A DNA stretch of 64,000 nt from Scilla litardierei (lineage: Eukaryota; Streptophyta; Magnoliopsida; Asparagales; Asparagaceae). Each line of letters begins with the position of its first letter. Position 1 is the stretch's first letter. Position numbers and translations under genes: made by a program. This document shows, piece by piece, positions 12,057-64,000 of the stretch. The stretch covers positions 12,143,860-12,207,859 of the forward strand of contig CM061130.1 of NCBI GenBank assembly GCA_030789695.1, written 5' to 3'. Below the pieces are notes generated by a model. That model did no database searches. It was not told the DNA's origin and saw only the letters and a list, made by a program, of their open reading frames with translations.

Positions 12057-12058
12057 CT

Positions 12059-14016: not shown

Positions 14017-14275
14017 GCAGGGAGTCGACTCCACCCATATGGAGTCGACTACCAGAGTGCTATTGCGAAAATCTGTGTTTTATTTTCTGATTTTTTTCTA
14101 ACTCATATTAGGTTTCATTGAGCTTATTGGGTTCATATCCAAAGAATGACTTAAACCCATTAAGAGAATATATCTCAACCCTTCATCCTCTTGATCCAAA
14201 GGCTACACATCATCACTTCTCTTCATCCAAAACATAAAAACTCCCAAGCCCAAGCCATAAGGTAGCCGACTACCA
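14017..14275 (+). promoter_or_regulatory. Internal copy of the LTR motif upstream of the Copia A extra ORF
   Basis: GGGAGTCGACTCC and GGAGTCGACTACC (14020-14053) and a third, mutated GGTAGCCGACTACC (14261-14274) recur outside the LTRs. A weak TATA-like AATATAT lies at 14168-14174, and a pyrimidine-rich leader leads to the ATG at 14452. Proposed internal promoter for the extra ORF; the TATA call is weak. Confidence 0.5.
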
Positions 14276-27205: not shown

Positions 27206-27258
<53 letters not shown>

Positions 27259-31880: not shown

Positions 31881-31882
31881 AA

Positions 31883-31894: not shown

Positions 31895-31923
31895 AGGTTT
31901 TAGGATCTAGCCTAGGATTGACC

Positions 31924-35107: not shown

Positions 35108-35120
35108 AAAAGGGGGAGAT

Positions 35121-39864: not shown

Positions 39865-41887
39865 AAATCCCCCAAGCTTACCTCTTACTCGTCCTCGAGG
39901 AAGATGAGTAAAAAGCGAACCCGGTGGATAAAGATAATGGAAACGATGGAAAAATGAAAAATGAAAAATGAAAAACAAAATAGAAAACGAAGAAGGAAGT
40001 TGCTAGATCATTTTTCTCAGGACGTGGGTTTTGCTTACTCATATAGCACGCATCGAATATAAAACACATGTCAAAGACTTTTATCTCGATATCATAGTAT
40101 AATGGTGCATTTGAAATAGAAAACCCAAGAATATCAATATAGCATGAAAAATGGAATAATTCTAGAATTAACATCGTCTGAAGCATCTAAAGCGGTATAC
40201 AAAATCGTAGATCACACACTTTTCAATTGAATGCTATCTATAAGGAGTATAAGAGATATCACACAATAGAGTAGTAAGAATAGAAAAGTGTGGTTTTCAT
40301 GATATGAATGCTAAGCGTAGATTTCTGGATTTCGTGAAACTTTTAGCAATCTCACCGAGTATAAAATATTACTTAGCCTAGGTTGTCATGCACCGTCAAG
40401 TAGTCACTCTCTCACACTTCATTGGATTCTCTCCCCCAAGCTTATCCATAAGCGTGGTGGCATTCACAAATCAATATGAACATTCCCCATTTCTTTTGAA
40501 GCTCCAAAAAAGAATAAAAAATAAAAACAAAAAGAGGGAAGAATGAGAGAAAGAGTATGAGATGGGATCGTTATGAACTTCTTTTCTCTTCTCTTTTTTC
40601 TCTCGATTTTTTCTCTTTTTTTTAAACATATATACACAAATGATCCCAAATCAAAAGAGAAGGATATACAAGTATATTTTTTTGCTTTTTGGTTTTGGGG
40701 AATTTGGAGCATAGGATATAATAACGGAGGAGATGCCAATAATAGAATTGCTAAGGGGAGATTCACCAATGAATTTAAAATAGAGAAACAATGTTCAAGA
40801 TATGTGGAGAAAGAAATAAATGTATCTCTCGGTTCACTCTATAGGACGTGCATGACAACTTCAGCAGGGTAATTTAATCTACTCAGTTTAATCTCAAAAA
40901 GCAAACTAGTCCAGATATATCAATGCTAGCAAACATCCAATCAACCTGAAGTGAAGCATACAAATCATGCAATAAGAAGTGATATAAGAAAGGAAAGCAG
41001 TACTCCAGATATAAGCAATCAATGCGTGAAGCTTGGTGTGTTTTCTACGATAGCATACATATGAATCATCAGACATCAGCTAATAATAGAATTTCATCCA
41101 TTTTCATACGGAAAAAGAGTGGGTTACTATTTCTAAATGCAAAGCAGAACATATCATATGATATCAGAAACAAAAGCTATGACATGACAAAATTAGCATG
41201 CATATAGAGAAAAGCTAACACCACGTCATCGTCATCACAGAAAAATCATCTCTAGCAAAAGATGAAAGAAATAAAGAAAACAGAAAATAGAACTATTTAC
41301 AATGCAGCACACAAGGAAAATAAGAAAAACGTGATGCATGGTAAAAAAATGAAAAGGTGATGAAAAATGGGTGCAAAAGCGGAAATAGCGTGAAAAAACT
41401 AAAAATAAAGGTGATAAAAGCGAAAAGTGTGAGAACTCTCTCCCCCAAGCTAAAGTGCACAGTGTCCTCAATGTGCAAAGTGTGGCACACCGAGAGACGT
41501 GTAATGGGTGGGGTGGGTGAGGATGCATGCATGATAAAAAAGAAAGAAAAAAAAACAAATAGAAAATATGATGTGGATATGAATGATGCATGCAAAGATC
41601 AGAGTGATGCAGGTAATGTGTCACCAAAAATACTCTCACTCTCTCCCAAAAAAAGATATAAAATGATGTGATCAGAACAAGGACCAAAATAGTGAGGGGA
41701 GGAGGTGGGGGAAAAAATCTCTAGGATCGGCAGAAAATGGGCAGCATAACGACAAAAAAGATCAATGGCATCAAGAGTGTGCCTAAGCTGGTGGTGCTGC
41801 ACCATCTCTGTCCTGTGGCGGAGGTGGAGGAGGAGGTGGGGGTGGTGGTCGAGGTGTCTGCTGGGTGGGTGGGTGTAGTGGAGGCAG
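39865..41887 (-). other. Gypsy G 3' non-coding region and polypurine tract
   Basis: 39865-39880 reads AAGCTTGGGGGATTTT on the minus strand, the likely polypurine tract. 41437-41474 holds ACATTGAGGACACTGTG and AGCTTGGGGGAGAG, a second purine tract shared with Gypsy E. Otherwise AT-rich with poly-A and poly-T runs. No gene. Confidence 0.65.
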
Positions 41888-42639
41888 TCACGCCAGGATC
41901 TGATTCAGGCAAGCCTGAATATCGGGAAGCAAGGCGACGCGGGACTGCACGGTACTGACCGTGGCAGACAGAGCCCTAAAGTCACCTCTGAGTCCACTCA
42001 CCACCCCCTCAAGAGCACGAATGCTCTGAAGTAGAGTGTCAGGGGGAGGTGGTGCAGAGGGACGCACATGTCTAGGCTGTGAAGGACGGGGCTGTCTGAC
42101 ACGGGCCGTGTAAATAATCGGGCCAGCAGGTATGTGCGGGAAAGGTGCTGTGCTCACTAGTGGATGCCCAGCCTCAGTTCGAGGCTGGGACGAGGGCTGG
42201 GTCGAAGCGGCAGCAGCAGCAGCAGCAGAAGTGGATGGTAAAATGTGCGACGAGGAAGCAGGAGAGGTCAGTGACACAGAAGCGGGGACAGACATCACGA
42301 CACTCTCGAAAAGGACAGCAGCGGTGGAGACAGAAGGGTCGACCACTGGGGAGGAAGTGTAGGTCCCAAAAGGTGATACCCCAGCGGACAGTAAACTAGA
42401 CATGGTCTCCACAACGGCAGAGAAGGAAGACTCGCCGCTCTCAAGTATGGTGGGTGGACGCTCGGGAAGGAGTGAGGAAATAGGCTCAACCGAGATAGGC
42501 ACAGCAGTGGTGGGGGTGGTGGTAGACGTGGTGGACGTGGTAGAGGGGAGTCCTCCCTAGCGTGAGAAGGACCGGGGTCATCAGTCTGCCTCCGCTTGGG
42601 GGCGGATCCCCGTGTGCGTGGCCTAGTGCGGGGTGGCAT
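41888..42639 (-). pseudogene. Gypsy G extra ORF, frameshifted
   Basis: ATG at 42639 opens M-P-P-R-T-R-P-R-T-R-G-S-A-P-K-R-R-Q, a basic Pro/Arg-rich start like those of the extra ORFs in Copia A and C. After a frameshift near 42540, the frame ending at 41888 gives a Ser/Thr/Ala/Pro-rich middle and a C-terminal coiled coil (L-L-Q-S-I-R-A-L-E-G-V-V-S-G-L-R). The globular domain seen in the Copia extra ORFs is not evident, so it may have been deleted or the ORF may be unrelated. Placed where Athila/Tat elements carry extra or env-like ORFs; no membrane segment seen. Confidence 0.5.
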
Positions 42640-43172
42640 GTGTGCCGCGAGTCTCACCCAACAAGAATAATATGCGGCGTGCTAAAAAGAATGGAAAGAA
42701 TGTACCTGAAAATGCCGCGAGAGCAAATCAGCAAGTACGTGCGAAGAGTGCCGCCTCCGCGAAGCCAAAAGCGCGTCCAAAAGATCCCCAAAGCTCCCCC
42801 AAGATAGCCTGCAAATCAAACAATGATATCATTGGATAATATTCAAAATAAATGGGAGAGATGGGGTATAATAGATAGATAAAGTAGTTGATTTGAGTAC
42901 GTGGCTCAATGGGTGTACGGATCAAGAAAAATGGGGAGAAAAAGGAATTTTGGGGCAAATATGGGACGAACGGCGTCGGCCGGCGGCGGGAGTGGTCGCC
43001 GGAGGTCGGCGATGAGGAGGGGGTCGTCGTCGGCGGTGGGGCGGCGTTTGGGCCGGCGGCGAGCTCGAATCGGGTGAGGGTGCGTCGGCAACGGGTGAGG
43101 GGAGACGAAACGGTGCGGGCTCAGGCGAAAAGTCGGGGAATTTGGGTTTTTAGAAAATCGCGCCCGCCTCTC
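42640..43172 (-). other. Leader between internal TATA and Gypsy G extra ORF
   Basis: GC-rich, gene-like 5' leader (42960-43170) followed on the minus strand by AT-rich DNA and splice-acceptor-like TTTGATTTGCAG (about 42810) and GGCATTTTCAG (about 42711). Suggests an intron-containing leader. Plus-strand open frames here look like chance products of GC content. Confidence 0.4.
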
Positions 43173-43174
43173 CG

Positions 43175-43185
43175 CTTATATAAAA
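43175..43185 (-). promoter_or_regulatory. Internal TATA box, Gypsy G
   Basis: Minus strand TTTTATATAAG, 12 bp downstream of the internal palindrome cluster and about 535 bp upstream of the extra ORF. Confidence 0.55.
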
Positions 43186-43191
43186 ATTGTT

Positions 43192-43517
43192 ACGACTCGG
43201 TCGAGTGCGTAAACAAAAAAAACTTCGAAATGTCTCATTCCCACTTACGACTCGGCCGAGTGGCTTTGCTTCACTCGGCCGAAGGGAGAAACTCCGTTCG
43301 GTCGAGTGGCACTGCCACTCGGCAATTTTCGTCCTAGGAGGGTATCCGTTTCACTCGGCCAAGTGACTAATTGTACTCGGTCGAGTGGCAGTTAATACTG
43401 AAATGCACAAAAAAGACAGAGAGTTGGTTCTGCAGACTTCCCTGGTTGGTGCCCCACTCGGCCGAGTGGGGTCCTTTGCTCGGCCGAGTGGCATATACTA
43501 CTCGGCCGAGTGGCGTG
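43192..43517 (-). promoter_or_regulatory. Internal CACTCGGCCGAGTG cluster, Gypsy G
   Basis: About ten copies of the LTR motif (for example GACTCGGCCGAGTGG, CACTCGGCCGAGTGG, TACTCGGTCGAGTGG) outside the LTRs. The same cluster/TATA order and spacing as in the LTR suggests an internal promoter for the extra ORF. Confidence 0.75.
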
Positions 43518-43839
43518 CTGTTTTCTGCTTCGGGGCTCCGTTTTCGCTTTACTCTCTGTTTTTCTTCCTCCAGTTGGTTTCTTCCTCTTCCTAAGCCTCG
43601 AACGCATTCCTGGAGCGCTCTTCTTTGCCTCGGTCATCCTCCCTATGAGAGATCTCCTTTTCTCCTCTCCTGTCATAAGAATTAAGACCAGTTGTCAAGA
43701 TTTTTATAGACAATTGACTCAAAACACTAGCAAAGTCTAAAACAAAAATAAAAAACCAAAATAAAAATAATGCAAAAACCATCGGGTTGCCTCCCGACAA
43801 GCACTCGTTTAAGGTCTTGAGCTCGACCCCTTTGGATTT

Positions 43840-45288
43840 TCAAATTAGCGTAGGGATGTTGGGTGTGTATGAGATGCACCCGTCGAATTTGTCGGGAAGA
43901 CCGCTCGGATTTGGATCGTGGTGGTGTGTGGCCTTCCTCAGCGCCCCTTCATCATGGGCAATGTTGGGGGATGGCTCCCCCAAGCTTGAGCTTGTTCCAG
44001 TCCTTGACTTCGCCGGTGACACCGATCTTCGAATCGGTGGAGCTTTCTTTGGATTCTTCGACGTCGAGAGCTTGCAAAGCTCCCGTATTCTTGCGACTTC
44101 AGCGTCGCCATCATCATTTGCCGTGGAGCTATTGGGAGAGTCCTCCAATGTCTCTTCGTCGCTCAAATCTTGGCTTTCTTCAAAGCCATCATCGTGGAGT
44201 GCACCGATGGAGTAGGGGATAGCCTCTTCAATGACCTCGTCAAGGAGGTCCACATAATCTAGCTCCTCATGATATGGCATGTGCTTCATAGCCTTTGGTA
44301 TATGGAGCTCGACTTCAATGTTACCGACATTCAAGGTAAGAGTCCCTTCCTACACATCGACGATTACACCGGCGGTGGCGAGGAATGGGCGTCCAAGTAT
44401 GAGCGATGTGTCACCCTCCTCCTTGACATCCATGATCACAAAATCAAAAGGCAAGCATATGCCTCCCGGAACTTGGAGTGGGATGTTCTCCGCAATCCCA
44501 ACCGGCCTAGTGATCCGACCGTTCGCGAGTTGAATCCTCATGTCGGTCGGCTTTAAATCGGTGCCGGTGTTCAACTTCCAGAACATGGTGAGAGGCATGA
44601 GGCTCACACTAGCGCCCAAATCAACCAATGCTTTTTGTAAGGGGACGCCTCCTAGTGTGCAAGGAATCCGAAAACTCCCGGGATCTTTAAATTTGGCGGG
44701 CTCCTTTTCCTTCCTAGTGAACCAAGTTCTTTGTTCCGCGAGCATGATCTTCTCTTTCCTTTTCCTTCCCGTAATCAAGTCCTTTAAGAACTTCGTGTAG
44801 GATGTGATTTCCACTATGGCATGAAGGAAAGGGATATTGAGGCTCACCCCTCTCAAGTATTCGAGGAACTTGGCTAGCCTCTTCTTGATCTTGGCTCTAG
44901 CTAGCCGTTGAGGGAAAGGCACCGGTGGCATGAATTGGCGCTCATCAATAGGTTCCTCCATTCTAGATTTTGCTCCTTCTTGCGGTTCCTTCTCTTTTTC
45001 CACCTCAATTGCCGGCTCGCTCTCTTCTAGAATCTCCACCACGGTTTCCTTGACTTGAGTCATCACGGGAGTGGTATCCTTCCCACCCCTTGTCGTAACC
45101 GCAACAACCGCGTTGATATGGCCGGTGTTGCCCCATGGATTTGCCTCGGGTTGAGCCGGAAATTGTTGGTTGTTTCTATTGAGCAACGCAAGTTGCTCCC
45201 CAATTTGAGCGACGACGGTGGTAAGAGAATCTTGTCCCGCCTTCAACATGGCGTTAATCTTTCTCTGCTCCACCATAAACTCCTCCAC
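43840..45288 (-). pseudogene. Gypsy G protease region and tail
   Basis: Gag/Pol linker and aspartic protease of an Athila-like Gypsy. The frame 45288-44350 carries a Gln/Asn-rich linker, a T-R-G-G-K motif, P-F-P-Q-R-L, and the protease core A-L-V-D-L-G-A-S-V-S-L-M-P with downstream D-M-R-I-Q-L-A-N-G and L-I-L-G-R-P-F-L-A-T-A. A TAG at 44350-44352 interrupts it; the same frame resumes at once (E-G-T-L-T-L-N-V-G) and runs to 43840. It ends at the GTCGGGAGGCAACCCGA block where full-length relatives have already passed RT and integrase. Confidence 0.85.
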
Positions 45289-45312
45289 CTTAGCTTCAAA
45301 ATCTGAACGTGG

Positions 45313-46609
45313 TTAAGCTTGCGGAGGGTTGGGATTTCTCCAACCTTGATTATACCCGGGTGGCCTATAAGGTCCCATTTGTTGCCTAGGTGGGAAGTTT
45401 TGTTGCGGTGGCCCCCTTGGTTGATAATTCGGTTGTGGTGGTGGAGCCCGAGCTTGAGGAGGTTGTTGTGGCAGGGGGTTCAAGGCACCTTCATTATTGG
45501 CATATGAAAAACCAGGATGGTTTCTAGTGGCCGGGTTGGCCCAATATCCGGAATTTCCCGTAACATACTGAATTTGCTCCAGAGCTCCTTCTCCAAGCTC
45601 TCCTCCTACATACAAGGTTTGGGATTGGTCTTGCCAATCACTCATATGGTTTGTCGGTGCGGATGTAGAAAGAGCTCCATGCGGCTCGGTAATGTATTTC
45701 TCCAATTTCTCCACTACCTTGTGGAGAGAGTCAAATTTGCTAGCAAGCTCCGCCACGGCCTTGGCCTTATAAATACTCGTGGGCTTCAAGGAGGACGAAG
45801 AATGTCCTCGCTCGTCGCCCCACTGTTGGTTGTTGGAGGCCATCTCCTCTAGCAAGGCCATATCTTCATCGGGGGTTTTTGACAAAATGGCTTCGTTGGC
45901 GGTAGCATAAATAATCTGTTTTGTGCCCGGTTAGAGTCCATTGTAGAAACTGTGGACAAGCTCCCAATCCTCTATGCTGTGATGGGGGCATTGATGCTGC
46001 AAGTCCTTGAAGCGCTCCCATGCCTCATAGAGAGTCTCCTGAGGTCCTTGCTTGAAGGACATGAGAGCACTTCTTATCTTCACCGTCTTGGAGGGCGGGT
46101 AACATTTGTCAACGAAGGCACTCGCCAATTCATCCCAAGTGGTGAAGATTCCTTCAGCCTACGTTCTCAACCAATATAAGGCCTTATCCTTGAGTGTGAA
46201 GGGGAAGAGGCGCAGTCTGATAGCATCTATGGAGACGCCCGGCATTTGGAAGGTGGCACATTTTGATAAAAAGAGCTGGATGTGGTAATGAGGGGTTTCA
46301 TGAGAATTCCCATGAAAAAGGTCTTGCTGCATCAGAACTACCAATCCATTCGTCAACTCGAAATTTTTGTCGGCCGCCCAACTCCGGCATAGCTATGGAC
46401 GAGGTCGTGGAGGAAGTCTTAGGCCGAAGCCAATCTCTAATGGAAATGATCCTCGCCATTCGCGTCGCCAATTCTTTGGTTGTCTCAGGATGGGTCATAA
46501 AATTCCCTTCCGTATCGAGTCTCCTCTCCGCTCTGATCCTCCTCAATGTACGTTCGATCTCCGGATCGTATAGTATTACTTCGGGGTCCGCTGTGGATCT
46601 CGTGTACAT
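45313..46609 (-). pseudogene. gag: Gypsy G Gag with in-frame stops
   Basis: Retrotransposon Gag. N-terminus near 46609 (D-P-E-I-E-R-T-L-R-R-I-R). After a frameshift near 46330, one frame holds L-F-P-F-T-L-K-D-K-A-L-Y-W-L, then C-Y-P-P-S-K-T-V-K-I-R and L-Y-E-A-W-E-R-F-K-D-L...W-E-L-V-H-S-F-Y-N-G-L, the classic Gypsy Gag core. A Pro/Gln-rich tail follows (45313-45500). In-frame stops at 46159, 45931 and 45313 (lower coordinates). The frame is shared with the protease, as in a Gag-Pro fusion. Confidence 0.88.
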
Positions 46610-46721
46610 GCAAGGAAAAACAGAGTTTCAAAGAAATATTTAGCACAAAGGAAGGGTAAAATAAAAAATAGAAATAATAAAACAAAAAGAAAAATAGCTA
46701 GGTAGGTAGAATCAAACACTA

Positions 46722-46745
46722 TCGCCTCCCCGGCAACGGCGCCAA
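46722..46745 (-). other. PBS, Gypsy G (tRNA-Asp type)
   Basis: Minus strand TTGGCGCCGTTGCCGGGGAG, complementary to the 3' end of plant tRNA-Asp, a few bases from the LTR end. Confidence 0.9.
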
Positions 46746-46750
46746 AAACT

Positions 46751-48586
46751 TGATCGCGCCCCGGATACACACCCGGGACAAGACTCGCTAGTCTTACCGC
46801 AAGCGCACGGTGTAGCGACGAGCGGGTATCGAACACGAGGAGGGCAAATGACGACGTCTTCTTTAATTCACCTGGCTATAAGAACAGTCGAGAAATATTC
46901 GCAATAAAGCGGTCACAGTCGTTCAATTGTATAAAGAAAGTATCAAATTAATAAAAACGCTTAGGGATAGGGAATCCCCGCTACAAACCGTATCTCGTCA
47001 TTGTGATTCGTATGTTTCACAATTGCTAGACTTGAAATTCAAGTGAACTAGTTGCAACTAAATTAGAACCAAGCTCATGCTCTCGCGCTATTGCCGGTCT
47101 ACAACAAACCTAGGGTAGGGTCCAATCTCTTGCAAACCCTAACCTAGGCAAGCTAGCGTGAAGAACAACATCATCGTTCAATCGTATCTCGAGCCCACTC
47201 TCGTGCAAACTCGAGCTACGTATCTCGAGCCCACTCTCGTGCAAACTCGAGCTACGACCTAGGTTGGGATAGTTCCTACCCGTCCAATCTCTTGCAAACG
47301 AGTATTAGTATAGAATTGCAATCGAAACCCCTAGTTTCGGTCCAATCTCTTGCAAACCGATTTCAGAGAAACCCAATTGTAACCCAATTCGAATTTCTAG
47401 GGCTTCCTATCGAGTTGGGATCCAATCTCTTGCAAATCCCAATCGGTATGAATCCCTAGCTATTCGTATTAAATCAATCCCAAAATAACCCTAATCAATT
47501 CTAACAAGAATTTCACTAATTCATCACAAATTAGAAATAGGGTTCGTAGGGTTCATCCCTACGCCCTAAGACGATAAAACTACTCACTATTCATAATGCA
47601 AATCATTAGAAATTCAATAATAAAAATAGTAGAATTCATTGCAATAGACAATATATCAATAAAAATGAGATTTTTGATAGAAAGAGTGACAAACCAATGA
47701 AGTTTCAATAGCATCCAACAAAATAGAACTTTTTATCTCTCTCCAAAGAACTAAATCTAATCTCCTCAAAAAGTAATCAAAAAGGGCTGCCAAAATTATG
47801 AAAAATCTCTCCTTAACTAGGTTAAAAACTGGGGTTAAATACCCCCCAAAATCGCCCAAAAATCTGTGACAAAATTGCCCCTGCGCAGCTTGAAAATCGC
47901 ACTTTACGCTACAGGCAGCGCGACTCACTCGGCCGAGTGACTTTCTTCACTCGGCCGAGTGACGGACCCTGACGGATTCCAGTAAGTCTGGACTTTTGGG
48001 GGTCGTCTCCTCGGGAGTCACTCAGCCGAATGGATTTTCTTCACTCGACCGATGGGATTTCTTCACTCGGCCGAGTCGGAACTCGGGGCTGACTGACGGA
48101 TTACAATAAGTTCGTGTTTCTTCTGCCGTCGTTCTGATGCCACTCGGGCGAGTGGTGTCTCCCTGCTCGGCCGAGTGGGATGGCGATGCTCGGCCGAGTG
48201 CACGCTGATACTCAATCTGTTGCGTGTCCGATCTGGCCGGCCGAGCGGGCTGTCGATGCTCGGCCTAGTGACTCCTTCACTCGGCCGAGTGGCATGTTGA
48301 AAATGCCCAATATTTGTATCTTTGCTTCCTCGTCGCTCCTACGACGTTCTTTCTTCTCCCACTCCTCTCCAATCGCAGAATTCCCCTCAAAAGAGTCACG
48401 GGTGACACTCCGGAGTGGGTGCATCTCAGAATCACACCAAATCGCTCCAAATCTCCTGAAATACGACAAAGACAAGAAATCGTGAAAAGCATTGCAATAT
48501 TGTCGAATAATCGTGAAAAACACGATATGGGCGATCTAAATGGCATGCAAACAAGCAGAAAAAAGGTGTAAAATATGGAGTGATCA
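46751..48586 (-). repeat. Gypsy G 5' LTR
   Basis: 1836 bp, near-identical to the 3' LTR. It carries an extra copy of a 36-bp unit (TATCTCGAGCCCACTCTCG type) at about 47187-47258, present once in the 3' LTR. Confidence 0.95.
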
Positions 48587-48609
48587 AGAGCGTCAACAAT
48601 GAGGCGCCC

Positions 48610-51984: not shown

Positions 51985-53811
51985 TGTAAGGACCATGTCT
52001 ATGGGAAACACACTAGAAGGGGGGTTGAATAGTGTTTATGCAAATTTAAAAGGAATTTACGCCAAATAAAATGCAATCCAACAAATATTGCGGAATAGAA
52101 AAACAACCCAAAAGAGAAACAATTGCAAACACAATTATGTTTCTAGGGTTCGGATTACCCAAGTCAACTCCCGACTTGTTCCCGGTAATCCTACGTCCCT
52201 TCCTCCCGGATACCACCGGATACTCAAGTTAGAACCCTAACTTGAGGTTTTCTTAAAACCCACTTGTAGCAACCCTACAAGTACAATCGAATACAATCGA
52301 TGTCATTGACTCCCACAACTTGGGAGCAAGCAAAACCACTCTCACAACTGAGAAAAAATCTCAAATAATGAAAGTTATGAAATAATGAAAACAACACTTA
52401 CAATCACCTATGTCTTGAAGTAGAACTTGAAGGAGGAGTGTGATGTGTGTTGGAGAACTCTCTTGGAAGAGAGGAGAAGCCCTTTCTCTTGACTGCACCA
52501 ATTGCCTAGAGGATCACTCTTTGGGTCTAGGTTGGAGAGCAAGAGATCAAAGATTGGAATTTCTTAGGGCTTTGGATTTGAGAGCTTTAAACTTTAGAAT
52601 CAAAGCTTAGAATGAAAACTTGGAAGAATTGGTCAGAATTGGTAACCTCTTAATGGAACAGTAGAAGCCCCATTTATAGGTTTCTCAAATCCACAAAACA
52701 GTTTAGGCAAAAACCCAATTGGAATCCGTGAGAAAAATCTCAACGGATAGAATCTGAACTCGCGACAGTCGACTGTTGAACAATCCACAATCGACTGTTG
52801 CACAGTCGGCAAGGGTAGGTGAGAATTCATAACGGTAACTTACCACGTGGACGGTCGACTGATGAAGCAAAGACATTCGACTGTTAAACCAACAGGCGAC
52901 TGTAATTACTTCTACAGGCGACTGGCCGAAAGATGAGTAAGTTAGAATAATACTGGAAATCTCACAAGTAACAGGACAGACGACTGATACAGATAATACA
53001 GTCGACTGTTAATCAGAACAGGCGACTGTAAATCCTTATACATATGACTGTCAAATACTCTGAGAATTTCCAGAGAGCTGAGTCAATGAAATGACTCACA
53101 AACAGACGACTGTTGCAGCATAGACAGTCGACTGATCCAAGAGATAGTGGACTGTATATACAGCATTAGTCGACTGGCCGTAAAAGTCAGATCAAACAGA
53201 GTTTGGGCAAAGGATAGGCAGGCGACTGATTTACAAAACACAGTCGACTGTCGCTTGGACAGGCGCCTGTGAATCGTTCATCAGTAGCCTGTGTGAAATA
53301 ATCAGAGAAGGCCCAAAACTATATTGTACAAGTCTGTGCATAACAGGCGACTGTAGAACAAAACACAGTCGACTGTTTTTGAGACAGGCGACTGTAAACT
53401 GTTAAGCAGTCGACTGTTATAAACAATCCTTGCATAATCAATGAACAAATGAATTTGGTTCAAAGGACAATTGATCTAATGATGTCCTACGACCGAATGT
53501 AGATGTGTGTGAGTGCTCCATCAAAGTTCTACTTCTATGCTACATACTAGAAGAGATAAAAGAAAATTACATTTGACGAATAATCTCTTCTTTCCATCGT
53601 ATGAGCTTGAAGTCTTCACGGAGCTTCAATCATCATCTACGATCATCCAATCCATGAAATTTTCCTTCAATGAACTTTGTAAGTCATACATTGCTAGTAG
53701 ATCTTCATAATAGTCTTAGGCAATGGATTAACTGCAAAATAAGGGATTAGTCACAAGTATTTATGTTTACTCATCATTAACACCAAGTAGGGAGAAGTCC
53801 AATACTCAACA
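51985..53811 (-). repeat. Copia C 3' LTR
   Basis: 1827 bp, minus strand TGTTGAG...CCTTACA. Cluster of about 20 CAGTCGACTG-type units at 52768-53425. TATA box CTATAAAT at 52672-52679 about 90 bp downstream. Confidence 0.95.
52768..53425 (-). promoter_or_regulatory. CAGTCGACTG/CAGGCGACTG cluster, Copia C 3' LTR
   Basis: About 20 ten-base units in 660 bp, from half-sites CAGTC and CAGGC; both homo-palindromes (CAGTCGACTG, CAGGCGCCTG) and mixed ones occur. The same cluster is in the 5' LTR at 63338-63990. Confidence 0.85.
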
Positions 53812-53826
53812 TTCTCCCCCTTTTTG
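53812..53826 (-). other. Polypurine tract, Copia C
   Basis: Minus strand AAAAAGGGGGAGAA abuts the 3' LTR. Confidence 0.85.
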
Positions 53827-54660
53827 ATGATGACAAACAAACATAAACAAAGAGATAAATAATTATACGTAATGAAAACTTACTCCCTCTACATAGATGC
53901 CAATCAAGTTAGGCAAAAAATATTAGGGCATCTACATATCAATTGAAGCAAATGAGTAAGATACATATGATTTTTAAATCAAGAAATCTAGGAATTAAAA
54001 TCCCTATTCATTGTAATCTTACTCCCCTTGGATCTATGGAAACTTCAATCTTAGATTCAAGTGTTAGAACATACTTAGCATATACATTATGAATCTTGTA
54101 TGTTTATTTCTCTCCCTAAGGCATTATCCAAAAAGGTGGGAGCAAATAACAACAACAATAATAGTGCTAAATACGAACTAACAACAATCAAGGAGTATAA
54201 AGATATATCGAATCAAAACTCATAAAATCACAGCATATACACATGTGAGTAATGGAATTGAAGTCCAATATCAACATTTTAGATATACGAAACGAAAATA
54301 ATTTCAAAAATTTCATCACATCAGAGATAGCATGAAATAACCAATATCAAATCCATATATTGTCTCAAAAACACATCAAAGAGAGTATATCATACTTGGA
54401 GACAATATAACATACATCACACAGATAAGATAAACATTATAGCATAGTGTGACACATGATAAAGCAGCAACATCATATATAGATATTTATAAAAGATGAG
54501 TACATCAACGGATGGACATCAACATGTCCATCACAAAATACATCATGACCAAAGACAAAAAGTAAATACATCGTCATGACAATATCGAAGTACATCACCA
54601 TACAGATATAAAGTCTATATCAACATCATCCAGACTCAAACACAAGAGACCACTCAAATA
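53827..54660 (-). other. Copia C 3' non-coding region
   Basis: AT-rich, no gene. Scattered pyrimidine tracts on the plus strand (CTTACTCCCTCT, CTTACTCCCCTTGG) echo the extra purine tracts of Copia A and D. Confidence 0.5.
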
Positions 54661-56102
54661 CTAAACCAAAAAAATAATATAGGACTGAGTGTCGTCAGGT
54701 GCTGCAGAGGAAGAAGGCTCTGGCACAGCAGGGGTATCCTCTGAAGTAGGGTCAACAGCAGCAGCAGCAGCAACAACAACACCAGCATCAGCAGCAACAT
54801 CAGTGACGGTGGGCTGAGGAGGCTCATGAGGCTGAGGAGGGACAAATCGTCGCAGATGCTCAGGGAAGGGTATTCCCTGATGCTGGAAGGATATGGAGAG
54901 CAACTCATAAATACCAGACATCATCTGACGAAGAGAGTCAGATGCTGGAGGAGCAGAGGAGGATGGCTGGTCAGCTGGATGAAGAGTAGAGGAAGATGGA
55001 TCTGAAATTGATTTCCTCTTCTTCGATGCAGACTGCAAGGCTGAAGAGGACTTTGCCTTGGCAGCAGCATCTAGGAGAGGAGCAAATGGCATGGGCTCAA
55101 AAGGAGACAAATCAATGCCAAAATGACGAAAAACACGAGTAAGGAGTCCACCATATGGAATGTGAAACGAGGAGGACGTGAACTCGACCTTGCCCATCCT
55201 ATCAAGGAGGACACCGGCCCAGTTCACGGGCATGCCAGAGAAAATAGCATACATACACTTCAGAATCTCCTGAGATGGCTGGTCAGACAATCCATACTTC
55301 GGCAGGATGTTGGACTTCACCACTAGGTGAACAGCCCAACCCCTAGCCGAAAACATGGATGACATAATCCCAGAATCTAGCGCTGAAGGTATCTCTCGAA
55401 ACATATCCCGGAGGACAGACTGGTTAAGATCGTCAATATCTGAGATGCAAATATCAGAGGAAAGGGAACCAACAGAGGGAATCCTAAGGATAGTCCCTAG
55501 GAGAAAGGGAGTAATCTGGATGTGGGTTCCCTGAACTATGGTATCAAGGGTGCCGGTAGTCGAATACTCACCGCGAACGCGGTTAGCATAGAGGAGCTTC
55601 ACCAGAAATGGGTAGGCTCTAGGGGACTCGCTCTGAGAGAAGCGAAAAAGATCGGCCAGGTAAGTAGAAGATAAGATGTCAGAAAGTCTCTCAGCGGTGA
55701 AGGCGGTGAAAGCAATGTACCGCTCCCTGAGAAGCGTGATCCCTATAAGAGAGTGATATTTTTCCAAGCAAAGATCATCTCAGCAAATAGGAACTAGGGG
55801 ATCAGAGGGAGGTACGACAGGAGGCTCTTCTGAAGAACTCAAAGCTGAAGGAGATAGATGGGGAGTGTCAGCAGTAGGCTCATGATGGTAAGACCAATGC
55901 GCTTCCGCTGACGCTGGATCAGGGGCTCAGCATCGGAAGACATTGCTGAAGGAGAGTAACCATGGGAAGAAGAATGCAAAGGAGACTTGGCATGCTTGAT
56001 TCGGGCTTTGTAGGGTTTATTTTTCTTGACTAAAGGTTTCTTGGGTGCCCTAGGACGCTTAGGAGCAACGATTTTCTCTTTTCCCTTGGTTTTGGGTGCC
56101 AT
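54661..56102 (-). pseudogene. Copia C extra ORF (plant transposon-associated protein)
   Basis: ATG at 56102 opens M-A-P-K-T-K-G-K-E-K with a long Lys/Arg/Pro-rich, nuclear-signal-like stretch. A frameshift near 55895 and a TGA at 55780-55782 precede a clean 368-codon frame (55767-54661). Its globular part has F-T-A-E-R-L, Y-P-F-L-V-K-L-L-Y-A-N, I-Q-I-T-P-F-L-L-G, K-C-M-Y-A-I-F-S-G-M-P-V-N-W-A and P-Y-G-G-L-L-T-R-V-F. This matches the domain often annotated in plants as putative plant transposon protein (I believe PF20167), and the extra ORF of Copia A. The tail is Ser/Pro/Ala-rich with a short helix. No signal peptide or membrane anchor, so not an obvious envelope protein. Its role is unknown. 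Confidence 0.75.
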
Positions 56103-56340
56103 GGAATCGAGAGATAGAGAAACGATAGTCGAAGAAATCGAAAGACACAAATCGAACGAAGGACTTGAGAGAGAGAGAGAGAGTCAAACCAAGTGGAGAA
56201 GGTGCGAAGACTCAATAACAAAGCAATCGACGAGCGGGAAGGCGGAGATCGACGACAACGGCTGAGAAAAGAGCAGGAAGTCGAAGCGATTCAATCAGAG
56301 GAGAGAGAAGATCGTGGCTTGAAATGTAACGTCTCGCTCA
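56103..56340 (-). other. Leader of the Copia C extra ORF
   Basis: On the minus strand a CT-rich leader, including a (CT) run at about 56166-56182, directly precedes the ATG. It resembles a host gene 5' leader. Confidence 0.45.
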
Positions 56341-56349
56341 ATATAAAAG
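56341..56349 (-). promoter_or_regulatory. Internal TATA-like box, Copia C
   Basis: Minus strand CTTTTATAT, between the internal motif cluster and the extra ORF leader. Plausible rather than canonical: the better TATAAAA reads on the plus strand. Confidence 0.4.
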
Positions 56350-56416
56350 TTGGGGAAATAATCTGGGCCGTTGGATCAATGAATCGATGGCTCCGATCAA
56401 AGCACTTGAACCGTCT

Positions 56417-56790
56417 CAACAGTAGACAGTCGACTGATGAACAGAAGTCAGTCGACTGGATGAAGTGATAAAAATACATCTCAGAAAGAGAGGCAGTCGA
56501 CTGGCAAGTAACATGCAGTCGCCTATCCGTTGGATAGTCGACTGGAAGGTACGCAGCAGTCAACTGGCCGAGAATCAATATAGTTCATCAAAAAGACAGA
56601 TAGTACTGTAAAAATTTCGACAGATAGTACAGTCGTCTAATGACCAAAATGCAGTCGCCTGTTAAACCAACAGTCGACTGTAAAATAGTCATCAGTCATC
56701 TATGAGAAAGAATTAAGATTCTGACTGAGAATATAGAGTAGGGCAGTCGACTGTTAAAGGAAAGACAGTCGTCTGTCCTGGTCCAGAAAT
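56417..56790 (-). promoter_or_regulatory. Internal CAGTCGACTG cluster, Copia C
   Basis: About 11 copies of the LTR unit outside the LTRs (for example 56428-56437, 56448-56457 and 56485-56494), ending about 315 bp upstream of the extra ORF ATG. The rest of the LTR sequence is not duplicated with it. Confidence 0.75.
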
Positions 56791-57044
56791 GCACAGTGAG
56801 ATAGAAATCCAAAGGATACGAACACTCACCCTAGGACTTATACTCTAATCACAAATACATCGTAAAAACAATGTAAAAACAATAAATCCATTGAAACAGA
56901 AATCGCTACAATTAATCTCAGAAACTCATGAAATCAAATAACTCTCAATTGCTTTTCTTAAACTCATATATATAATAAAGCACATGAAGATATGCAACAA
57001 AATGATATGAGCTCAAAAAGTGTTATAACATGAATGTTGAGCTT
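56791..57044 (-). other. Spacer after Copia C pol
   Basis: AT-rich; no gene. Separates the RNase H stop (57045) from the internal motif cluster. Confidence 0.5.
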
Positions 57045-59060
57045 CTAGATTTCAGATTCACACATAATTCCTAATTCTCCACGCAACCTCACAAATGAAT
57101 CTTCTTTAAGAGGTTTAGTGAAGATATCAGCAATTTGTTTTTGGGTTTCAATGTACTCTAAGATGATGTCCTTCTTAGCTACATGATCATTTATGAAATG
57201 GTGTCTCACGTCTATGTGTTTGGTACGGGAGTGGTGTACTGGGTTCTTGAAAAGACAAATAGCACTTTGATTATCAACCATGATAGGGCAAGTATCACAA
57301 TTGACACCATAGTCACTAAGTGTGTGTCTCATCTAAAGAACTTGTGCACATGCAAGACCCGCGGTAATATATTCCGCTTCAGTCGTGGACAATGACACTA
57401 AATTCTGTTTCCTAGAAAACTAAGAAACTAAGGAATTTCCTAAGAAATGGCAAGTGCCACTAGTACTTTTCCTGTCGGACTTGCATCGAGCAAAGTCGGC
57501 ATCACTATATGAGATTAACTCATATGTGCTAGACTTAGGGTAAAGTAACCCATAATCTAGAGACTGATTGAGATTGCGAAATATTCGTTTGACTGCAATC
57601 AAGTGTGACTCCTTAGGTCTAGCTTGATATCTAGCACAAAGGCATACAGAAAACATGATATCGGGCCTACTAGCGGTTAAGTAAAGTAAGCTACCGATCA
57701 TACCTCGATATAGACGAATGTCTACATCTTTTCCGCTTTCATCCTTGTGTAGATGAGTAGTAGTACTCATGGGAGTCCTTTTGCTCGAAGACGATTCCTT
57801 CCCGAATCGCTTAATAAGCTCCCCTGTGTACTTTGTTTGATGTATGAATATGCCATTCTCTATTTGTCGAATTTGCAATCCAAGGAAGTATGTGAGCTCT
57901 CCCATGTGGCTCATCTCAAACTCATCCTTCATAGACTTGGAAAATTCTTGACAAAGATTAAAGTTAGTAAAACCAAAAATAATATCGTCTATATAAACTT
58001 GAATCAAAATAATGTCATTTTCATAATATTTAATGAAGAGTGTAGAATCAACTTCTCCCATTTTAAAACCTAAATCCAAAAGAAAGGTCTTAAGTCGATC
58101 ATGCCAAGCTCTAGGAGCGTGTCTCAACCCATACAATGCTTTCTTAAGTTTGAAAACATGGTTTGGAACTTTTTCATGAATAAAACCGGGAGGTTGAGAA
58201 ACATATACTTCTTCATTGACAAACCCATTTAAAAATGCACTTTTAGCATCCATTTGATATATTTTAAAATTTTTATGGGATGCAAAAGATAACAGCAACC
58301 TAATAGCTTCTAACCTAGCTACGAGGGCAAAAGATTCTTCGAAATCAATACATTCCTTTTGCCGGTAGCCTTGAGCTACTAACCTTGCTTTGTTCCTTGT
58401 GATTACCTTGTTTTCATCCGTCTTGTTCTTGAAGATCCATTTAGTCCCAATGACTTGGTGACCACTTGGAAGAGGTACGAGTTCCCAAACTTCCTTTCTC
58501 TCGAATTGCATTAGTTCTTCTTCCATTGCCACTATCCAATAGCTATCCTCACAAGCTTCTTGGATGTTCTTTGGCTCAATGGTAGAGACAAATGCGCAAT
58601 GAGAGAATTCTTCAATTCTCGACCTCGTTTGAACACCCACACCAATATCTCCAATTATTTGGTTATGGGGATGATTACGAACGGTCGGGTAAGCTTTGGG
58701 TATACCTGTATCACTAGAAACAACTTCAACAATTTCGTTAGAAGTGTTAGTCTCAACAATAGAATCATTAATCTTAACATTATTAAGAGAATCACAAAGA
58801 GTATCTACACTATCATCATCAACATGAGGAAAATCAAAATCTTCATAGAAAGATACGTGAAGTGATTCCTCAATCGTTGAAGAAGTTTTGTTGTATATCC
58901 GGTAGGCTTTGCTACGTGTGGAATATCCAACAAAAATTCCTTCATCGGATCTTGGCTCAAATTTATCTAAGTTACCAAATGTGTTCTTTATAAAACAGTT
59001 TGAACCAAAAATACGAAAATACTTCACTTGAGGCTTTTTGTTGTAAAACAACTCAAACAT
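57045..59060 (-). pseudogene. pol: Copia C reverse transcriptase and RNase H
   Basis: The 546-codon frame 59060-57420 covers the integrase tail ([21 protein letters not shown]) and [22 protein letters not shown], the catalytic Y-I-D-D (usually Y-V-D-D) and [11 protein letters not shown]. RNase H starts [13 protein letters not shown] at 57420-57422 and another at 57333-57335 interrupt it; both stand where relatives have Trp (TGG), so both look like G-to-A changes. The last frame (57332-57045) holds V-D-N-Q-S-A-I-C-L and K-H-I-D-V-R-H-H-F, completing RNase H. The enzyme copies element RNA into DNA. Confidence 0.93.
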
Positions 59061-60240
59061 GTTTTGTTCGTACGGGGTCTCACTAGGATCCTATTGAGCA
59101 CATAACATGTCGTGTGCACCGCTTCTGCCCAAAATTATAGTCCTAAATGACTATCATGGAGCATAGTGCGAGTACACTCAATAAGAGTCATATTCTTTCT
59201 TTCTACAACACCATTTTGTGGTGGTGCACGAGGAAAGGAAAAATTATGAGTTATCCCGGTGTCATCACAAAACTTAGTAAAAGACTCATTCTCAAATTCT
59301 CCTCCATGATCACTACGAATAGTGATAATGGTGGATCCTAAAAGATTCTGAATCTTCTTTGCAAATTTGGTAAACTCTTCATAAGCTTCATTCTTATTAG
59401 TTAAGAATGAAACCCAAGTAAATCTAGAAAAGTCGTCGACGACAACTAATCCATAGTGAGCATTACCTAAAAAAGCGGTTCTAGTTGGCCCAAATAAATC
59501 TACATGAAGAAGTTCTAGGGGCCTCTTAGAAGTAATCCCTTCTTTAAGCTTAAATGAAGATTTACTTAGTTTACCTCTTTGACACGAATCACAAAAGTTT
59601 TTCTTATTAAAAGCAATCTTAGGAAAACCTTTGACTATATCATGCTTAGCTAACTTATGTAAGTGCTTGAAGTGAACATGACCAAAATGGCGATGCCATA
59701 ATAGTTGTTCACTTGTGTTAGCAACTAAGCAATGTTCTACAGTTTTAAGCAAGCTCAAATAATAAATATTTTTACGCCTAATACCAGAAAATAAAACATT
59801 TGAATCACAGTCAACAATTGTACACAATCCTTCTCCAAAGTTAACCTTGTAACCTTTGTCACAAAGTTGACTAATGGAAATGAGATTGTGACATAAACCA
59901 CTAACTAGAAATACATTAGTAATCAAGGGTTTTGAAGGATTACCGACAATACCTACTCCAATGATGGTTCCATTTTGATTACCTCCAAAAGTGATCGTTG
60001 CACCATCCTTGATGCTAATCACTTCGGAGAGCAATGAGGGATCTCCCGTCATATGTTTGGAGCAACCACTATCAAGAATCCATCCTTTACCTTTAGAGCT
60101 AATAAGACCTTTGTTGCTCTTCTTCTTTCTCTTGGGTACCTATATGATATACCATAAGCTTATGGTACCCAATGTTTGTTGGGTCCAAGGGGATTAGCCC
60201 TTTGGAAGCCAAGTCTAAGTGGACTTCTGTTTCCCAACAT
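59061..60240 (-). pseudogene. pol: Copia C protease and integrase
   Basis: The open frame extends upstream of the ATG at 60052 to about 60240 and contains the protease active site W-I-L-D-S-G-C-S-K-H-M-T (Asp codon 60071-60073). Downstream are the integrase HHCC finger (L-W-H-R-H-F-G-H-V...C-D-S-C) and core D-D-E (H-V-D-L-F-G-P, R-S-D-H-G-G-E-F, N-G-V-V-E-R-K-N). It ends at 59135 after H-D-S-H-L-G-L; a frameshift separates it from F-W-A-E-A-V and the RT frame. No start codon is expected, as it is part of a Gag-Pol polyprotein. Confidence 0.92.
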
Positions 60241-60952
60241 AATTACTATTTCTTATCATATCATGAAAATATGAATCAACATAAGTATTCTTATCATTTA
60301 GACTAGTGTCCTTAGGACCCCAAATAGTGTAAATCTTGGGAGTCCTTTTCCTAGTTGCATGCATATGTGTTGGATTTCTATGTGGTGCATGCTTCTTAGG
60401 AACATGATTTCTAGAATAGAGATGTGGAGGAGGATATGCATTGTACATTCTAGGATGATATGTATGCTTGGGAACATGCATGTTGCATGAAGCATATGGA
60501 TCATGCATGACATGTGGAGGATGACCATACATGTATGAATGATGTGTATGAGCATACGGGTGTATAGGAGCACGTACATGAGAATTTCTCATGTGTGGAT
60601 TTGTACGTGTTCGTGGGTGTGGAGCATAAAAAGTGTCATGATTATCCACTTGTGAAGTAGGAGGTTTCCTACGTGGATGAGTGTTAGTGTACATATAAGC
60701 ATGGCCTTGCTTTTGGTTTCCATCCTTAGTGGGTTTCTTGTCAAAAGAAAGAGAATGTGAAGTGGTGACATTCTTGGTAGTATTACTACCTATAGTGTCT
60801 TTGACACCACTTGTGGATGCACCGGAGGAAGGCCTCACAAAATCTATAGTGACACCACTATAGAAGGTGCGATCATTGGATGCATTCGCATTCACAAACC
60901 CAAGACCAACACAATGTGTGGCCGGAAATTGGTTTGCAAGAAAATCATCCAA
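60215..60952 (-). pseudogene. Copia C Gag/Pol linker, His/Tyr/Pro-rich
   Basis: A 245-codon frame between the Gag coiled coil and protease. The middle is packed with His, Tyr, Pro, Met and Asn (such as H-T-H-H-S-Y-M-Y-G-H-P-P-H, H-V-P-K-H-T-Y-H-P-R-M-Y), with over 30 His. No CCHC knuckle is seen in this linker, where some relatives have a second one. It ends near Y-T-I-W-G-P-K, like the W-V-P-K border motif, then a frameshift leads to the protease frame. Confidence 0.7.
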
Positions 60953-62530
60953 TTGTCCTTTTTCCCTTATTGAATCTCACAATTCGGGAGGACATGAGCT
61001 CATATTTCTCCTTTAAAGAAGAAATGTTGGTATCCAAGGTGGACACCTTTGCTTTGAGCTCGTGCACTTGAGTTTTAAGAGAATCATTCTCTAAACTCAA
61101 TTGTGTGTGTCGTGTAACTATATCACTATTATCCTTAGGATGTGTTTGATCTAGTTGAGATTTGAGGGAATTCACCTCATCTCTCAAAGTGACATTTTGA
61201 GAAGCTAAGTTTGCTTTCTCAAGAGTTAAAGTATCAACAATGGTGTCATTGTTGATAATGCATGGAATGGATGACTTGATAATATTCAATTTCTTTAAGC
61301 TAGAATACTTAAGCATTAAAGATTGGTATTTAGCAAATAGTTCTTCATTAGCAATGCGAAGTTCATCCATTGTTACCTCGGTTTCGTCCATGTCGGAGTC
61401 ACTCTCATCGGGGAGTGGGTCTTCTAGGGCCATGAAACACATGTGGGCGCTCTCACCCTTCTCATCATTGGAATCACTCGATGATTCATCACTTGAGTCG
61501 TCGAATGTACCTACGAGTCATTTCTTCTTGTCTCTCTTGTTCTTATCGGACTTGTGGTACTTCGGTGCCTTCCACTTCTCTTTGTTCTTTAGCATTGGGA
61601 ATCCCTCTTGATGTGCCCTGGCTTATTACATTTATAGCAAAGAGAGGAAGTAGCATTAGTAGACTCAAAACATTTGTTGGAGGGAAATTTACCTTTGCGG
61701 AAGAAGCGTTGGAACTTCTTCGCCATTTGGGCCATTTCACCCAAATCCATCTCGTTCTCGGATTCATCACTATCGGAGGATGATGAATTGCTGTTGAATG
61801 CCAAAGCTTTCTTCTTGGCCTCCGAGGGATTCATCATTGCTCGAATCTTTAATCGGTTCTCTTGTCTTACCTCATAAGACATGAGAGTCCCGATAAGATT
61901 CACCACGGTGTAGTTCTTCAAGTCATTGACCTCCTCGATGGCGATCGCTCTTCTTTCCCATTTGGAGGTCATTCCCATGATGATCTTCCTTACATTATCA
62001 AGTTCGGAATATATTTGGCCAAGGGTTTCCAATTCATTGATGATGTCGGTAAAACATCCGTACATCGATGCAATGCTCTCATTATCCTGCATATGAAACA
62101 AATCGAAGTTTTGCACGGTAACATATAACTTTGAAAGTTTTACCTTATTCATTCCCTCATGGGTAACGATGAGATGGTTCCAAATTTGATATGCACTCTT
62201 ACATGTGCATATCTTGTTGAACTCATTCGGGTCCAACGCACAATGAAGAGCGTTCATTGCCTTAGCGTTGTTGACCTCGGTGGTTTTCTCGGAAGACGTC
62301 CATTTGTTGAAATCTACTTCGGTGGGCTCGACATATTCCTTGTGGAGGTTTCTCCAAAGCGAAGCACTCCTAAGGAATGTCTCCATCCTGCATTTCCAAT
62401 AGCTAAAATTTGTACCATTGAAACACGGAGGGCGCACCGTAGATTGACCTTCGAAAAGTGTGGACGCTCCATCACGATCGTGATTGTTGTACGAAGGCGG
62501 AGGAGGAACGTTGTTGTTGTTGGATGCCAT
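60945..62530 (-). pseudogene. gag: Copia C Gag (UBN2-type) with zinc knuckle frameshift
   Basis: ATG at 62530, after the PBS, opens M-A-S-N-N-N-N-V; the in-frame ATG at 62557 overlaps the PBS and is rejected. UBN2 core: V-R-P-P-C-F-N-G-T-N-F-S-Y-W-K and A-Y-Q-I-W-N-H-L-I-V-T-H-E-G. The zinc knuckle C-Y-K-C-N-K-P-G-H-I-K-R-D loses its last Cys through an apparent one-base deletion near 61600. A TGA near 61518 follows in the shifted frame, then a long coiled coil (61442-60945). Confidence 0.88.
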
Positions 62531-62544
62531 AGATATAACCTTGC

Positions 62545-62556
62545 GCTCTGATACCA
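62545..62556 (-). other. PBS, Copia C
   Basis: Minus strand TGGTATCAGAGC, two bases from the 5' LTR end. Confidence 0.95.
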
Positions 62557-62558
62557 AT

Positions 62559-64000
62559 TGTAAGGACCCTATCTATGGGAAAAACACTAGAAGGGGGGTT
62601 GAATAGTGTTTATGCAAATTTAAAAGGAATTTACACCAAATAAAATGCAATCCAACAAATATTGCGGAATAGAAAAACAACCCAAAAAGAGAAACAATTG
62701 CAAACACAATTATGTTTCTAGGGTTCGGATTATCCAAGTCAACTCCCGACTTGTTCCCGGTAATCCTACGTCCCTTCCACCCGGATACCACAGGATACTC
62801 AAGTTAGAACCCTAACTTGAGGTTCCCTTAAAACCCACTTGTAGCAACCCTACAAGTGCAATCGAATATAATCGATGTCCTTAACTCCCACAACTTGGAA
62901 GCAAGCAAAACCACTCTCACAACCGAGAGCAAATCTCAAATAACGAAAGTTATGAAATAATGAAAACAACACTTACAATCACCTATGCCTTGAAGTAGAA
63001 CTTGAAGGAGGAGTGTGATGTGTGTTGGAGAACTCTCTTGGAAGAGAGGAGAAGCCCTTTCTCTTGACTGCACCAATTGCCTAGAGGATCACTCTTTGGT
63101 TCTAGGTTGGAGAGCAAGAGATCAAAGCTTGGAATTTCTTAGGGCTTTGGATTTGAGAGCTTTAAACTTTAGAATCAAAGCTTAGAATGAAAACTTGGAA
63201 GAATTGGTCAGAATTGGTAACCTCTCAATGGAACAGTAGAAGCCCCATTTATAGGTTTCACAAATCCACAAAACAGTTTAGGCAAAAACCCAATTAGAAT
63301 CCGTGAGAAAAATCTCAACGGATAGAATCTGAACTCGCGACAGTCGACTGTTGAACAATCCACAGTCGACTGTTGCACAGTCGGCAAGGGTAGGTGAGAA
63401 TTCATAACGATAACTTACCACGTGGACAGTCGACTGATGAAGCAAAGACAGTCGACTGTTAAACCAACAGGTGACTGTAATTACTTCTACAGGTGACTGG
63501 CCGAAAGATGAGTAAGTTAGAATAATACTGGAAATCTCACAAGTAACAGGACAGACGACTGATACAGATAATACAGTCGACTGTTAATCAGAACAGGTGA
63601 CTGTAAATCCTTATATAGACGACTGTCAAATACTCTGAGAATTTCCAGAGAGCTGAGTCAATGAAATGACTCACAAACAGACGACTGTTGCAGCATAGAC
63701 AGTCGACTGATCCAAGAGACAGTCGACTGTATATACAGCATTAGTCGACTGGCCGTAAAAGTCAGATCAAACAAAGTTTGGGCAAAGGATAGACGGGTGA
63801 CTGATTTACAAAACACAGTCGACTGTCACTTGGACAGGCGCATGTGAATCGTTCATCAGTAGCCTGTGCGAAATAATCAGAGAAGGCCCAAAACTATATT
63901 GTACAAGTCTGTGCATAACAGGTGACTGTAGAACAAAACACAGTCGACTGTTTTTGAGACAGGCGACTGTAAACTGTTAAGCAGTCAACTGTTATAAACA
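62559..64000 (-). repeat. Copia C 5' LTR (partial, cut by window end)
   Basis: Near-identical to 51985-53424. TATA box at 63247-63254, motif cluster 63338-63990. Expected to end about 385 bp past the window. Confidence 0.95.

Follow-up and report, generated by a model that had tools for sequence, protein, structure and literature searches.

The question raised by this locus is why an LTR element should repeat the palindromic motif of its own LTRs inside the element, in front of an additional open reading frame (extra ORF). The segment concerned lies at 56341-56790 of the window (the whole stretch of 64,000 nucleotides of Scilla litardierei DNA that was analysed), within an element named Copia C. 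This segment is probably the promoter-proximal regulatory region of the extra gene of Copia C, in which case one factor would act on the LTR and internal arrays and a separate extra-ORF mRNA would be made.

Copia C and its box arrays

The features of Copia C are given by position. RM, repeated motif (palindromic box); PPT, polypurine tract.

51985..53811, minus strand: 3′ LTR, delimited by alignment with the visible 5′ LTR
52766..53416, minus strand: LTR array of palindromic boxes (RM), in 22-19/20-22 blocks
53814..53821, minus strand: terminal PPT AGGGGGAG, 10 bp before the 3′ LTR
54664..56102, minus strand: extra (envelope-like) ORF, in two frames here (56102-55842 and 55779-54664)
56103..56337, minus strand: CT-rich leader without ATG (composition, ATG scan)
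56340..56349, minus strand: TATA-like box (sense CTTTTATATT), about 80 bp after the last RM box
56427..56775, no strand given: internal array of 12 RM boxes (11 at ≤2 mismatches)
57423..59090, minus strand: reverse transcriptase region (Pfam match, PF07727)
59138..60139, minus strand: integrase region (Pfam matches, PF13976, PF22936, PF00665)
61592..62572, minus strand: gag with CCHC knuckle (Pfam matches, PF14223, PF00098)
62545..62560, minus strand: 5′ LTR/PBS junction CA-ATTGG-TATCAGAGC, identical to the Sirevirus 16-mer in the accessible text of PMC2829016
62559..64000, minus strand: 5′ LTR with RM array, ending at the window edge (LTR alignment, box counts)

Copia C is assigned to the Sirevirus-type Ty1/copia elements with high but not complete confidence; most of the features compared agree. 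Gag, integrase and reverse transcriptase belong to Copia families but are spread over separate open pieces that differ in frame. The LTR pair is 96.8% identical (3′ LTR against visible 5′ LTR, 1443 aligned bases). The Sirevirus 5′ junction CA/ATTGG/TATCAGAGC is present as the exact 16-mer (62560-62545), the Sirevirus PPT octamer precedes the 3′ LTR (53821-53814; LTR from 53811), the LTR carries a high-copy palindromic RM (18 boxes at ≤1 mismatch in the 3′ LTR) and an RM cluster lies upstream of the envelope-like gene (56427-56775). The attachment site is AA/TG instead of AT/TG, in the window copy and in the sister copy L083, and the RM has no CGG-CCG core, its commonest form being CAGTCGACTG; these two features keep confidence below complete. 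The motif CGGTCGACCG has 0 occurrences in either LTR. AT/TG is given for 20 elements out of a set of 21 Sireviruses in the accessible text of PMC2829016, so this trait is not without exception, and a published Sirevirus, Tnd-1, likewise lacks the CGG-CCG core (same source).

Near the 3′ LTR, one exact PPT octamer and three with one mismatch (54117, 54029, 53890) were found; another near-octamer lies at 56832, before the extra ORF. Sister copy L083 has three exact octamers and one with one mismatch, the exact ones including two of the places where the window has near-octamers. L083 was the only readable stretch of the three fetched for this comparison, L084 and L085 having no alignment over the site. 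At the terminal PPT, TTTATGTTT and TCATCAT recur by eye in inverted form in the Copia C LTR; an ungapped test gave just 10/12, and for a different pair.

Other sequences of the window are recorded here as separate observations. A piece related to the Copia C LTR lies at 1-796 (73% identical over 60-504, similar box spacing). The LTR at 1266-3242 starts like that of Copia C (TGTTGAGTATTGGAC) and has another motif, CCGACTAG half-sites, which are alternately inverted and mostly 16 and 26 bp apart. The element at 30053-37134 combines a TATCAGAGC PBS (31886) with five AGGGGGAG octamers between 34869 and 35111, hence a Sirevirus-type multiple PPT. A 31-bp tandem repeat (17 copies) lies at 20155-20690, and 27207-27256 consists of 50 consecutive C. 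A viral contig collection gave 0 stretches with the Copia C box pair and 0 for the reverse transcriptase. A bacterial genome collection gave two reverse transcriptase relatives out of 21 pattern stretches, on small Labilibacter scaffolds (L001:3693-5672 and L002:661-2742; Copia-type, 48-51% identical, filed as Labilibacter sediminis CG51), which are probably eukaryotic contamination.

The window has 23 exact occurrences of the box CAGTCGACTG, where shuffles predict 0.03. With 0, ≤1 and ≤2 mismatches allowed, segment 56341-56790 holds 5, 9 and 12 matches; 300 shuffles gave means of 0.003, 0.04 and 0.28, which rules out chance clustering. One of the 12 matches overlaps another; there are therefore 11 separate boxes at ≤2 mismatches, five of them exact, and the first-pass annotation, which had counted eleven copies of the Copia C LTR unit here, is borne out. 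An additional weaker box (3 mismatches) lies in register at 56693. The rest of the internal domain (53813-56340, 56791-57047, 57048-62557) has no box at ≤2 mismatches. The corresponding counts at 0/≤1/≤2 mismatches are 6/18/21 for the 3′ LTR and 9/14/20 for the visible 5′ LTR.

The spacing of the boxes is regular. Successive gaps in the internal array are 22, 45, 22, 19, 22, 73, 22, 19, 22, 51 and 22; the LTRs are built of repeating 22-19/20-22 blocks. Boxes thus form pairs 22 bp apart, and a four-box block consists of two pairs 19 bp apart (19 or 20 in the LTRs). Rfam models gave nothing at the gathering threshold on 55800-57100.

Box, spacing and some flanking bases are common to the LTR and internal arrays, and little of the 12-bp spacers is. 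The 16 bases flanking box pairs are 34% alike between the internal array and the 3′ LTR, a likeness attained by none of 2000 shuffles (27% when shuffled); for the 12-bp spacers it barely exceeds that of shuffled ones (34% against 31%, p 0.047). BLAST likeness to the Copia C LTRs spans the array (best matches about 56418-56776, E about 1e-14), and no LTR match at E≤1 covers the TATA-like box, the leader or the start codon (56080-56850 compared). Flank likeness and bounded homology together indicate that the internal array is an old relative of the LTR array, not a truncated LTR; boxes and spacing would have been kept while the spacers drifted. That the cluster is a truncated LTR or a random insertion peculiar to the window copy can be dismissed as next to impossible: homology of the two box arrays is what such an origin would leave, but no other LTR segment lies alongside at E≤1 (56080-56850), and the array stands at the same place in the 29 other copies fetched.

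Conservation across copies and decay within one insertion

Copies of Copia C were searched with 56103-56420, a query that contains the TATA-like box and the leader and excludes the array. Of 1728 first-look candidates, 40 were scored (82-100% identical to the query) and the best 30 were analysed, the window copy included. Copies without the leader escape this query, and TATA retention is partly selected by it. Genome-wide, the exact box-N12-box pattern was found at 25,691 places in 3.68 Gb, and its reversed control at none.

The array is present in 30/30 copies (that of the window and 29 others), with nearly identical spacing. Each copy has 9-13 boxes at ≤2 mismatches within the 600 bp upstream, some copies being one to three boxes short; the 900 bp still further upstream has 0 boxes in 29/30 copies and two in L008. 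Seven of the 12 boxes match exactly in most copies; another four never form an exact palindrome (0/30 copies), and a fifth does so in 1/30.

Boxes vary much less than the sequence between them, as found on comparing cluster and spacers in the other family members. Transversion diversity among the 30 copies is 0.020 in box columns and 0.072 in array spacers; the leader has 0.068, the stretch from the array to the TATA-like box 0.044 and the upstream linker 0.059. Total diversity is 0.073 in boxes and 0.129 in spacers. When the box mask was shifted circularly, the true register was the lowest of 349 for both measures. Relative to the window copy, 0 letters are inserted within boxes and 28 in array spacers. 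The selection on the internal cluster that the first-pass annotation had proposed is supported by these comparisons.

Divergence within one insertion follows another course. Between the two LTRs of Copia C, boxes differ at 16/220 sites, array spacers at 5/431 and the rest at 24/791; boxes are more changed than all other sites (p 0.0005). Eleven of the 16 box changes are of C-to-T or G-to-A type in a CG or CHG context; the other five show no excess (p 0.59). CG and CHG sites make up the box, so these changes are probably due to methylation decay after insertion. Inserted copies are thus unprotected, and it is the replicating lineage that must be under constraint; decay after insertion makes the conservation of boxes across copies more telling. 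The LTR pair of Gypsy G, described below, has no significant excess (boxes 7/120, other sites 66/1672, p 0.33), and that of Copia B has 0/40 box changes.

Expression of the extra ORF

From the last box to the TATA-like box, the distance is about 80 bp in the internal array and 88 bp in the Copia C LTR. TATAT is retained in 27/30 copies, a figure that is partly built in because the query contains the TATA-like box, and the TATA columns are not less variable than the adjoining stretch between RM and TATA (0.114 against 0.093). The leader is marked by its composition: C+T makes up 72% of 56103-56340, and only 14 of 851 intervals of 238 nt in the internal domain are free of ATG, all of them starting within 56103-56233. 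Among the 30 copies, the leader is ATG-free in 23 and the ATGGC start is present in 25. The TATA-like box and CT-rich leader annotated earlier in front of MAPKTKGK are as described, with the start at 56102.

The longer piece of the extra ORF scores 43.4 bits against PF20167, a family of plant transposon proteins whose curated cut-off is 45, and so falls just short of it. Diversity by codon position among the 30 copies is 0.107/0.088/0.182 in this piece and 0.098/0.115/0.158 in the first piece; the long piece has at least one in-register stop in 24/30 copies. The diversity pattern shows codon-position constraint, as expected for a gene under purifying selection in an active lineage. No homologous protein was found at E≤0.001 among 8000 candidates scored, and the structure predicted for an extra-ORF piece without alignment was poor (mean pLDDT 40.4). 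The protein start is strongly basic (32% K/R in the first 50 residues).

In the reading preferred here, the LTR and internal arrays would both be recognised by one sequence-specific DNA-binding factor, which probably binds as dimers to boxes that lie about two helical turns apart. This factor would activate transcription of the genomic RNA from the LTR as well as of a separate extra-ORF mRNA, whose start would be some 30 bp downstream of the internal TATA. For Copia C, we infer TATA use, transcription start, factor binding and co-regulation from these sequence patterns. Co-regulation of genomic and extra-ORF transcripts, to which the first-pass annotation had ascribed the repeated LTR motif, is plausible, and the interpretation given there is, as a whole, partly supported.

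Expression by splicing of an RNA started in the LTR into the CT-rich leader, the array then serving for instance as an LTR enhancer, is unlikely. The leader would be the polypyrimidine tract; of its AGs, the pyrimidine-rich ones at 56263 and 56165 each persist in 28/30 copies and that at 56212 in 30/30, and splicing is, with stop-codon suppression, among the published routes for plant ENV-like genes (PMC2829016, accessible text). However, 105 of 233 leader dinucleotides are also kept in at least 28/30 copies, so retention of these AGs is nothing unusual; the two remaining leader AGs are kept in only 12/30 and 10/29. As these AGs do not exceed the leader background, a splice acceptor was set back from main reading to rival. 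Splicing also leaves the TATA and the exact position of the array unexplained, and linker RMs lie upstream of ENV in 77/79 published cases (same source).

Quite improbable is that the arrays are chiefly targets in a silencing conflict, as foldback RNA feeding small RNAs or as sites of a demethylating factor, and not promoter sites. Within four-box blocks (five of the 3′ LTR and two internal), spacers are complementary at 43/84 positions against 33.8 when permuted (p 0.008), which makes these blocks imperfect foldbacks. The array RNA folds at z -6.8, but this score largely follows from the palindromes themselves. The CG and CHG sites of the box, its hypermutation between the two LTRs and the reported excess of small RNAs over palindromes of Sireviruses in maize (Bousios 2016, from the accessible text of PMC10760457, which cites it) also suit silencing. 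A liability exploited by the host should, however, be lost rather than kept, and the location between pol and the TATA of the ORF, together with box constraint, fits cis-regulation at least equally.

These results turn the idea of an internal promoter from a pattern into an argument from selection: across copies, boxes are under constraint relative to spacers, and the neighbouring ORF is constrained as well.

Parallel arrangements and known systems

Two other elements of the window carry boxes of their own in front of an extra ORF.

43195..43511, no strand given: Gypsy G internal array, 9 ACTCGGCCGAGT boxes at ≤3 mismatches (box scan)
14022..14051, plus strand: Copia B GAGTCGACTA box pair before the extra ORF, which starts at 14452 (box scan)

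Gypsy G (38072-48587; LTRs 38072-39865 and 46751-48587) is Athila/Tat-like. Its PBS is TTGGCGCCGTTGCCG, of the tRNA-Asp type known from Athila/Tat. Pfam scans of five of its open pieces gave a match to an aspartic protease (PF13650) and none to reverse transcriptase. Each LTR has ten ACTCGGCCGAGT boxes at ≤3 mismatches; beyond the array, the internal domain has one isolated match at 44500. Within groups, most neighbouring boxes are 21-23 bp apart. TATATAA stands directly downstream of the array (minus strand), and the start of the extra ORF is at 42639. Outside this element, 9135-9426 holds four boxes that resemble the Gypsy G palindrome at ≤2 mismatches.

The query used for Gypsy G contains TATATAA and excludes the array. 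It gave 16 stretches from 42 matches (40 scored of 2529 candidates); the higher-scoring matches starting in the first 8 query bases were taken, lower-scoring ones of that kind being excluded. With the window copy, 17/17 copies read have 7-11 boxes and TATATAA, and the earlier statement that Gypsy G repeats its own LTR motif before its own extra ORF holds. Transversion diversity is 0.034 in boxes and 0.084 in spacers (third lowest of 317 shifts); total diversity is 0.111 and 0.164 (just 27th lowest of 317).

Copia B (10362-23993) is Sirevirus-like, with the PBS TATCAGAGC at 12062 and AGGGGGAG at 22199 and 22221. It has four exact GAGTCGACTA boxes per LTR and two before the extra ORF. Thirty copies were collected with 14060-14460, a query without boxes (40 scored of 1497 candidates); both boxes are present at ≤2 mismatches in 27/30, the window included. 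Copia B has gag and the extra ORF, with a hAT transposon (BED, DUF659, hAT dimerisation) nested at 16186-19229; no pol match was found in the three pieces beside it that were scanned with Pfam. Its extra ORF matches PF20167 weakly (20.2 bits) and is related to that of Copia C (BLASTP, E 3e-7). The extra-ORF pieces of Gypsy G gave nothing significant by BLASTP (best E 0.29 with Copia C, none with Copia B).

The Gypsy parallel suggests that extra ORFs may often have a switch of their own, tied to that of the LTR, and it offers reporters and binding targets that can be tested directly. A further proposal, which is improbable as it stands, is that Copia (Sirevirus) and Gypsy (Athila/Tat-like) elements came to the same design independently: an own palindrome at a spacing of about 20-23 bp, in the LTR and before the extra ORF. 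The extra ORF would encode not an envelope but a factor recognising the palindrome of its own family, motif and gene co-evolving as a self-specific activation or anti-silencing circuit on the model of VANC in VANDALs. Such a factor would explain why boxes are family-specific, why they accompany the ORF and why the Copia C protein starts with basic residues. Among the literature titles and abstract openings searched, whose coverage of subscription papers is limited, no report was found of a Gypsy element with an array of its own LTR palindrome and a TATA before an extra ORF; an array of this kind in Gypsy elements was likewise not found in the accessible text of PMC1142308.

The known systems were compared from the accessible parts of the papers cited. 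SIRE/Maximus elements have, like Copia C, an extra ORF after the polyprotein; the function of this ENV-like gene is unproven, and an internal promoter is one possible route of expression (PMC6317226, PMC3599292, PMC3414828). The extra genes of plant LTR elements are without experimental proof of function according to PMC3414828.

Athila/Tat-type Ty3/gypsy elements share with Gypsy G the PBS TTGGCGCCGTTGCCG, the aspartic protease (PF13650) and the extra ORF. VANDALs are not LTR elements. Like the elements described here, they have short family-specific motifs in tandem arrays at several non-coding places, beside a variable gene encoded by the element (PMC5735166, PMC10398659). The targets of VANC are fast-changing tandem arrays (PMC5735166). 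Binding has been shown for VANC (PMC5735166, PMC10398659); the Pfam match of the Copia C extra ORF is PF20167, not DUF1985 or DUF287.

The closest counterpart of Copia C is the Sirevirus RM, described as palindromic in 13 Sireviruses (Bousios et al. 2010, PMC2829016, consulted in part, here and for the remainder of this section). The two are alike in the many palindromic boxes upstream of the LTR TATA, in a second cluster located 5′ of the envelope-like gene with the same motif in both places, and in the PBS and PPT signatures. All nine RM-bearing Sireviruses with ENV have further RM copies in the linker (77/79 of these upstream of ENV); the four without ENV have none there. The motif differs: 12/13 published RMs have the CGG-CCG core, which CAGTCGACTG lacks, and the Vitis RM CGGTCGACCG differs from CAGTCGACTG at two positions. 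The comparison made in that paper is between Sireviruses and classic Copia elements, and its authors consider that the RM clusters support an internal ENV promoter. The Copia arrangement is therefore already known since 2010. The common 22-19-22 block spacing and the conservation of boxes over spacers at the level of copies are additions to that account; overall, what is added is copy-level selection on the boxes and the parallel in Gypsy.
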